Assembly (NCBI GenBank): GCA_947481575.1
Contig: CANKGV010000005.1
Span: 59,462-123,461 of the forward strand
Length of the DNA stretch: 64,000 bases
Direction of reading: 5' to 3'
From: Alphaproteobacteria bacterium
Lineage (GTDB): Bacteria > Pseudomonadota > Alphaproteobacteria > UBA2966 > CAIVPW01
The translations under genes were made by a program, and so were the position numbers. The notes below the pieces were generated by a model that had not been told where the DNA came from, searched no databases, and worked only from the letters and a program-made list of their open reading frames with translations. Shown here one piece after another: positions 36,896 through 37,800 of this stretch (the stretch's first letter is position 1; every line of letters starts with the position of its first letter).

Positions 36896-36980
36896 TGTTG
36901 TTCCTTGCCCCGCAGTCAGGGCCGCAATCAACCGGCGGGGCGGCGGGCTGTCAACCGGACCGGCGCAATTCCGATACGTA

Positions 36981-37009
36981 TTGACACGTTACGGCTTGCA
37001 CACTAAGAT
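36981..37009 (+). promoter_or_regulatory. Candidate sigma70-type promoter upstream of rpsF
   Basis: TTGACA-N17-TAAGAT. Confidence 0.5.
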
Positions 37010-37102
37010 ACCGGGTTGCATGAACCGGCAAACGCTCAAAGCCACCGATCTCCTCGGCACCGTAATCAGCCCGTATTTGCGGTTCGCGGCCGCCGCGCCG
37101 TC

Positions 37103-37131
37103 CTGGCGTAAATCTCGCGTATTTACGCCAG
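37103..37131. repeat. Palindrome 1 upstream of rpsF
   Basis: CTGGCGTAAAT-CTCGCGT-ATTTACGCCAG, perfect 11-bp arms. Confidence 0.85.
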
Positions 37132-37160
37132 CCGCGGCCCGCGTCCGTCCCCGGATTTTC

Positions 37161-37181
37161 CGTAAATCCCGCGTATTTACG
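37161..37181. repeat. Palindrome 2 upstream of rpsF, same core as palindrome 1
   Basis: CGTAAAT-CCCGCGT-ATTTACG; differs from the palindrome 1 core at one base. Confidence 0.85.
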
Positions 37182-37219
37182 CAAAACCGCGATCACGCTG
37201 GCGCTGGCGGCGCCGATCC

Positions 37220-37247
37220 TTGCGCCCGGCGCGGCTTTCGCTATAGT
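37220..37247 (+). promoter_or_regulatory. Candidate proximal rpsF promoter
   Basis: TTGCGC-N16-TATAGT about 95 bp upstream of the rpsF start. Confidence 0.45.
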
Positions 37248-37341
37248 CCGCCGCTTCGAAACCTCCTTGCCGGAAGTCCGGCTATGGGCGGGTCTGGGCT
37301 CGGCTCAGATCTTCGTCCCGACACAGCCATAAGGAGCTGAA

Positions 37342-37800
37342 GTGGCACTCTACGAGAGCATTTTTATGGTCCGGCCAGACGTTTCCTCGGCGCAAGTCGA
37401 GGAACTGACCAAGACCTATACCGACCTGATCACCGCCCAAGGCGGCAAGGTCACCAAGGTCGAACAGTGGGGTTTGCGTAACCTCACGTACCGCATCAAG
37501 AAGAACCGCAAGGCCCACTACGTGTTCATGAACTTGGACACGCCATCTGCCGCCGTGAAGGAGATGGAACGTCTGATGGGCATTTCCGAAGACGTGCTGC
37601 GCACGTTGACGGTGCGCGTGGACGCGCTGGAAGAAGGTCCGTCCGCGATGCTGCAGAACAAGGGCCGCGACGAACGCGGTGGCCGCCGTGGCGATCGCCG
37701 CGGGGGTCGCGATGACGACCGCGGCTTCGGCCGTGATCGCGATGTCGAACTGCCGATGGGCGTCGGCGTCGTCGCCGATGACGAAGGAGACGTCGTATGA
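37342..37800 (+). CDS. rpsF: 30S ribosomal protein S6
   Basis: [29 protein letters not shown]...[30 protein letters not shown] start. Confidence 0.97.

Follow-up and report, generated by a model that had tools for sequence, protein, structure and literature searches.

What do two near-identical palindromes do immediately upstream of the ribosomal protein operon rpsF-rpsR-rplI? Such a pair was noticed in the window analysed here, a 64,000-nucleotide stretch of the 2.45-Mb draft genome of an alphaproteobacterium (G000 below). The preliminary description offered two readings, namely paired operators for a dimeric regulator and RNA hairpins that exclude one another in a ribosomal protein leader. 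These readings make different demands on the surroundings of the palindromes, on their occurrence elsewhere and on their fate in related genomes, and the following sections take up these aspects in turn.

The Locus Upstream of rpsF

All features of the locus lie on the forward strand, and promoters throughout this work are consensus matches. The first palindrome, CTGG-CGTAAAT-CTCGCGT-ATTTACG-CCAG, spans 37103-37131 (C1 type, outer stem CTGG/CCAG, covariance-model E=1.3e-11), and the second spans 37156-37186 (C2 type, E=1.0e-9), with the core CGTAAAT-CCCGCGT-ATTTACG at 37161-37181 and an imperfect outer stem, TTTTc/cAAAA. The presence of the pair, the distance of 54 bp between the centres and the single spacer base by which the 21-bp cores differ were all confirmed as previously described. 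Within the window their sequence occurs exactly twice at up to three mismatches, against no occurrence in 100 shuffles, although here as in all hairpin counts the copies are related and shuffles overstate the significance.

The palindromes are indeed flanked by a distal and a proximal promoter. The distal one, P1, is of the sigma70 type (TTGACA-N17-TAAGAT, 36981-37009, with TTGACA at 36981-36986 and TAAGAT at 37004-37009), and the proximal one, P2 (CTTGCG-N17-TATAGT, 37219-37247, with CTTGCG at 37219-37224 and TATAGT at 37242-37247), lies outside the repeat. The analysis added to this picture the outer stem of the second palindrome, an operator-like palindrome, (G)ATACGTAT, which covers the -35 element of P1 (36973-36986, ATACGTAT itself at 36974-36981), and a third, weaker hairpin of B type, the degenerate CCGTAATCAGCCCGTATTTGCGG at 37060-37082 (covariance-model match G000:C5:96516-96548, E=0.027). 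Downstream of P2, and likewise outside the repeat, a conserved leader (37263-37336) precedes rpsF, which encodes S6 and is the first gene of the operon (37342-37800, from the open reading frame list and orthologues in relatives).

A Small Family of Dispersed Hairpins

The genome scan that had been suggested for the palindrome revealed a dispersed repeat with copies at many unrelated loci. At up to three mismatches G000 holds 16 copies, a number that also goes beyond the preliminary description, against none when the pattern was reversed as a control. The number rises to 20 with a relaxed pattern and to about 22, at 11 loci, with a covariance model trained on 32 hairpins; there they stand singly or in clusters of two to four. 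The hairpins are scattered over intergenic regions, with a few copies within early coding sequence. Their outer stems are of at least four types (CTGG/CCAG, TTTTG/CAAAA, CGCG/CGCG and CACC/GGTG), and units that combine CTGG on one flank with CAAAA on the opposite flank resemble products of deletions between the first two. In one case (L031, 1500-1521) the hairpin overlaps the stop codon of purD on the opposite strand, the TAA being that of CGTAAAT.

Together with the promoter motif and the DUF5681 genes treated below, the hairpins are confined to two sister genera, g1 and g4, as judged from draft assemblies, those of the family being 79-99% complete. Elsewhere in the genome collection the exact core was found on four contigs only, one of them from a relative. 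A phage origin was considered and rejected, as viral contigs contained no exact copy of the core, and a text search of the literature for the core sequence returned nothing related. Genus g4 has, in addition, a second hairpin family, CGCGTAATCCCGCGTTCTTTGCGCGGG and variants, located 3' of the same type of promoter (L063, L064, L076, L081 and L085).

Promoter and Hairpins as One Cassette

The hairpins are linked to a promoter in a fixed orientation. Of eight genome-wide matches to AATACGTATTGACA at up to two mismatches, six are followed by a hairpin on the same strand 65-120 nt further downstream. Only the two hairpin-carrying genera have the motif ATAC-N5-GTATTGAC in abundance, and reversed-pattern controls for the promoter and hairpin motifs are near zero in g1 and g4; a shared motif is thus found upstream of many genes beyond chance, as a regulon of common operators would have it. 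Across six genomes the motif (at up to three mismatches) stands upstream of 24 of 49 hairpins on the same strand and downstream of 6 of 49, its palindromic form raising the upstream counts on the opposite strand as well, and for part of the hairpins a recognisable promoter is missing. Within cassettes the operator over the -35 element is a palindrome, ATAC-N5-GTAT or ATACGTAT, and the -10 element often overlaps such a palindrome as well.

Comparison of whole loci extends this linkage. The cassette at L027 and the one upstream of atpI (L028) share 81% identity across 120 ungapped bp from the operator onward, the C1-C2 stretch at rpsF is 82% identical over 100 bp to a cluster on another contig of G000 (C2:58.4 kb), and paralogous cassettes have the same promoter layout as P1. 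Since the homologous blocks include the promoter, it has been dispersed together with the hairpins as a single cassette. In each cassette a sigma70-type promoter with a palindrome over the -35 element would come first, and one to four hairpin units would lie within about 30-150 bp downstream of it. The reading we favour, and consider probable, is that the twins at rpsF are two units of such a lineage-specific cassette that came to lie, by insertion or copying, between fabD and P2, the native promoter.

Copy number and homology suggest mobility of the cassette; no empty site was found, and no transposase is assigned to it. Inspection of the cassette ends revealed neither a terminal inverted repeat nor a target duplication, and at a G003 locus searched for an empty site G004 carries the cassette too, so that the insertion boundary could not be read. 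Classical REP/BIME elements, which owe their movement to a RAYT (Y1) transposase, come to mind in this context, being likewise short, intergenic, clustered and modular palindromes. The Y1 transposase domain (Y1_Tnp, PF01797), however, is present in none of the eight genomes of the family, whose assemblies are 79-99% complete, against 5 of 14 control genomes, and REPs are not known to travel with a promoter. This identity is very improbable and was rejected for the absence of the transposase.

On the minus strand of L062, about 110-190 nt 3' of the promoter motif and upstream of an lpdA-like gene, TTCACGGAACCGTGATCTGCGTA is followed by repeated CGTAA units. The motif CACG-N4-CGTGATCTGCGTA seen there recurs at L031, L040, L072 and L079.

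Genes at the Cassettes

Seven of the cassettes in G000 lead into a co-directional gene, namely lepA, ahcY, the L027 gene (to which no function was assigned), atpI-atpB, rpsF, thrC and a DUF5681 gene that precedes an acetyl-CoA synthetase-like gene; lepA and ahcY were named by NCBIfam match, DUF5681 by Pfam and the others by eye from the translation. The other four face a convergent gene, identified by eye as purD, an M23-peptidase-like gene, a hydrolase-like gene and a putative lipoprotein gene. Because four of the 11 cassettes point into a convergent gene, a role as gene leader cannot be general. A translated leader peptide was also rejected as a general explanation: several copies have an open frame across the hairpin (RKSRVFT or VNPAYLR), with starts and frames that vary between them.

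The rpsF Leader in Relatives

In all ten relatives compared (G002-G007, G008, G010, G012 and G014), P1 and the hairpins are absent upstream of rpsF. P2 and the leader, CTCCTTGCCGG..CCGGCTATG..ACAGCC..AAGGAG, are conserved there, giving 11 genomes with G000. As the ten relatives have P2 and the leader without the hairpins, the palindromes are almost certainly not the ribosomal protein leader. In the consensus fold of the 11 sequences CTCCTT pairs with the Shine-Dalgarno sequence; the pairs are nearly invariant, so that covariation offers no support for the fold, and sequestration of the Shine-Dalgarno sequence by this modelled helix is possible. The P2 leader is probably a diverged leader of the S6:S18 type. 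It shares with the known S6:S18 rpsF leader RNA (PMC4647458) the operon and, in the 11 genomes, a similar layout downstream of P2, whereas the palindromes lie outside it and are not kept upstream of rpsF. The proposed Rfam scan for an S6:S18 leader yielded no match in the window at gathering thresholds, and at E-value thresholds the interval 36900-37350 returned only an irrelevant mgtE match (E=3.8).

These results bear directly on the suggestion that the twins form mutually exclusive RNA structures controlling the operon. In its favour, the arms are complementary across the two copies. The same units, however, recur at unrelated loci, they are missing at rpsF in 10 of 10 relatives, and the conserved leader, which does not contain them, begins downstream of P2. 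Moreover, the minimum-energy fold of the P1 leader does not depend on cross-pairing between the twins and is only modestly better than that of shuffled sequence (z = -1.83). The recurrence at unrelated loci and the absence from rpsF in relatives are the two outcomes that the preliminary description had named as refuting. The suggestion did not survive the comparison and is extremely improbable; the palindromes at rpsF are members of a small dispersed hairpin-repeat family and almost certainly not a ribosomal protein control switch. A striking pair of palindromes near a ribosomal operon thus need not be one.

DNA Sites or RNA Hairpins

If the twins are units of a dispersed cassette, the level at which these units act has to be considered separately. 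Between the species G003 and G004, conservation at orthologous loci is higher in the hairpin blocks than in most of the intergenic DNA around them, which suggests that at least some copies are probably under selection. Each unit has the form NCGTA-WWT-CNN-NCGTA-WW-TACG and thereby contains three NCGTA half-sites, two direct ones 11 bp apart and one inverted.

One alternative emphasises these half-sites and regards the units as operators that are read as duplex within a protein-DNA regulon, in which the regulator perhaps also occupies the -35 palindrome and represses by looping or as a road-block, with the orphan DUF5681 proteins as candidates. The first and the loop NCGTA have the same N in 45 hairpins out of 51, where 18.6 would be expected, and an RNA stem would leave this loop copy unexplained. 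In CATA variants all three units are changed together, and one orthologous locus shows the same coordinated change, with CCGTA..CCGTA..TGTCGG in G003 and CCATA..CCATA..TATGG in G004. DUF5681, in addition, co-occurs with the cassette in the genomes examined (see below). Against such a regulon, the outer arms beyond the half-sites co-vary, which a duplex operator does not need, the orientation of the hairpins relative to the promoter is fixed, though common descent could account for that, and template-switch repair could likewise homogenise the three units. We regard it as rather unlikely.

The outer arms carry the opposite argument, that hairpins in the promoter-proximal nascent RNA alter mRNA stability (RNase III-like) or act on RNA polymerase (nut/put-like antitermination). 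Changes in the outer stem are compensatory, with a covariation of 0.227 compared to 0.101 in shuffled sequence (0/500), a test that is inflated by the relatedness of the copies. Hairpins with a recognisable promoter mostly lie on the side that it transcribes, and hairpins are tolerated in untranslated regions and early coding sequence alike. However, conservation of the inner 7 bp is of sequence and not of pairing, the NCGTA of the loop changes together with that of the arm, and the hairpins are without an Rfam match. The G-U wobble strand test (11 vs 14) showed no bias towards the sense strand, which sits better with duplex operators than with RNA hairpins and is in itself uninformative for RNA. 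As the whole explanation, action through RNA appears unlikely. Considering the co-varying half-sites including the one in the loop, a protein-DNA role seems as likely as an RNA role.

The favoured reading of a promoter-plus-hairpin cassette accommodates either role. A dimeric regulator would bind the -35/-10 palindrome and thereby control P1, and the downstream units would be transcribed and provide further sites for that regulator or RNA hairpins setting transcript stability, as in Correia elements (see below). At rpsF, the conserved P2 and its leader would gain an additional distal promoter that is subject to regulation.

DUF5681 as a Possible Source of the Cassette

The distribution of DUF5681 (PF18932) equals that of the hairpins and the promoter motif: the domain occurs in six of six g1/g4 genomes and in neither of the two others (g2 and g3). 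Orphan DUF5681 genes have the same promoter, and in most of them the first codons contain a hairpin or a related direct repeat, while three high-scoring copies instead adjoin a terminase-large-subunit-like gene, as identified by eye. Relatives of DUF5681 are found on plasmids of Methylobacterium and others. At L034, L053, L093, L095, L098 and L104, the palindrome or direct repeat in the first codons of the orphan genes is made up of codons of the CGT, AAT/AAA, GTA and TTT type, unlike the codons in these genes generally, most of which end in G or C. A DUF5681 relative on a viral contig (L143, around 2001) has CCCGCGTA...TACGCGGG at the same early-codon position.

The cassette resembles the orphan copies of DUF5681, genes that are terminase-small-subunit-like in prophages, in promoter and early-codon repeat, and differs from them in that a DUF5681 gene is missing from most dispersed cassettes, the rpsF one among them. 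Being shared with the 5' ends of the orphan genes, the cassette may derive from them, an ancestry based on common layout and not on a tree. A further step would make the orphan proteins DNA-binding autoregulators whose promoter and three-half-site cassette were copied before the atp, rpsF, lepA, ahcY and thrC operons, such that housekeeping genes of a single small clade of alphaproteobacteria are now under a regulator derived from a mobile element. This we put forward as speculation that is quite unlikely to hold in full.

Comparison With Known Systems

Two groups of repeats invite comparison with the cassette. REP/BIME elements (REPINs) with their RAYT share its short, clustered, modular and intergenic palindromes; the cassette differs in the lack of a Y1 transposase in the family and in the fixed orientation of its repeats 3' of one promoter type. 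The closest analogue, and the best functional one, is the group of Correia repeat enclosed elements (CREE) of Neisseria, which are small, dispersed near genes and combine promoter sequence with inverted repeats that form mRNA hairpins (PMC2649163). In both cases a dispersed, promoter-bearing element near genes has hairpin-forming repeats, the promoter being predicted here from the homology block and linkage, and the likeness is one of layout and function, not of compared sequence. CREE are bounded by inverted repeats with a target duplication, whereas here the promoter stands at one end and the hairpins are internal and modular. If active, the cassette would supply core operons, among them those for ATP synthase and ribosomal proteins, with a regulated promoter, link them to a phage-associated protein family of unknown function, DUF5681, and represent a promoter-bearing repeat outside Neisseria that does without a RAYT transposase.
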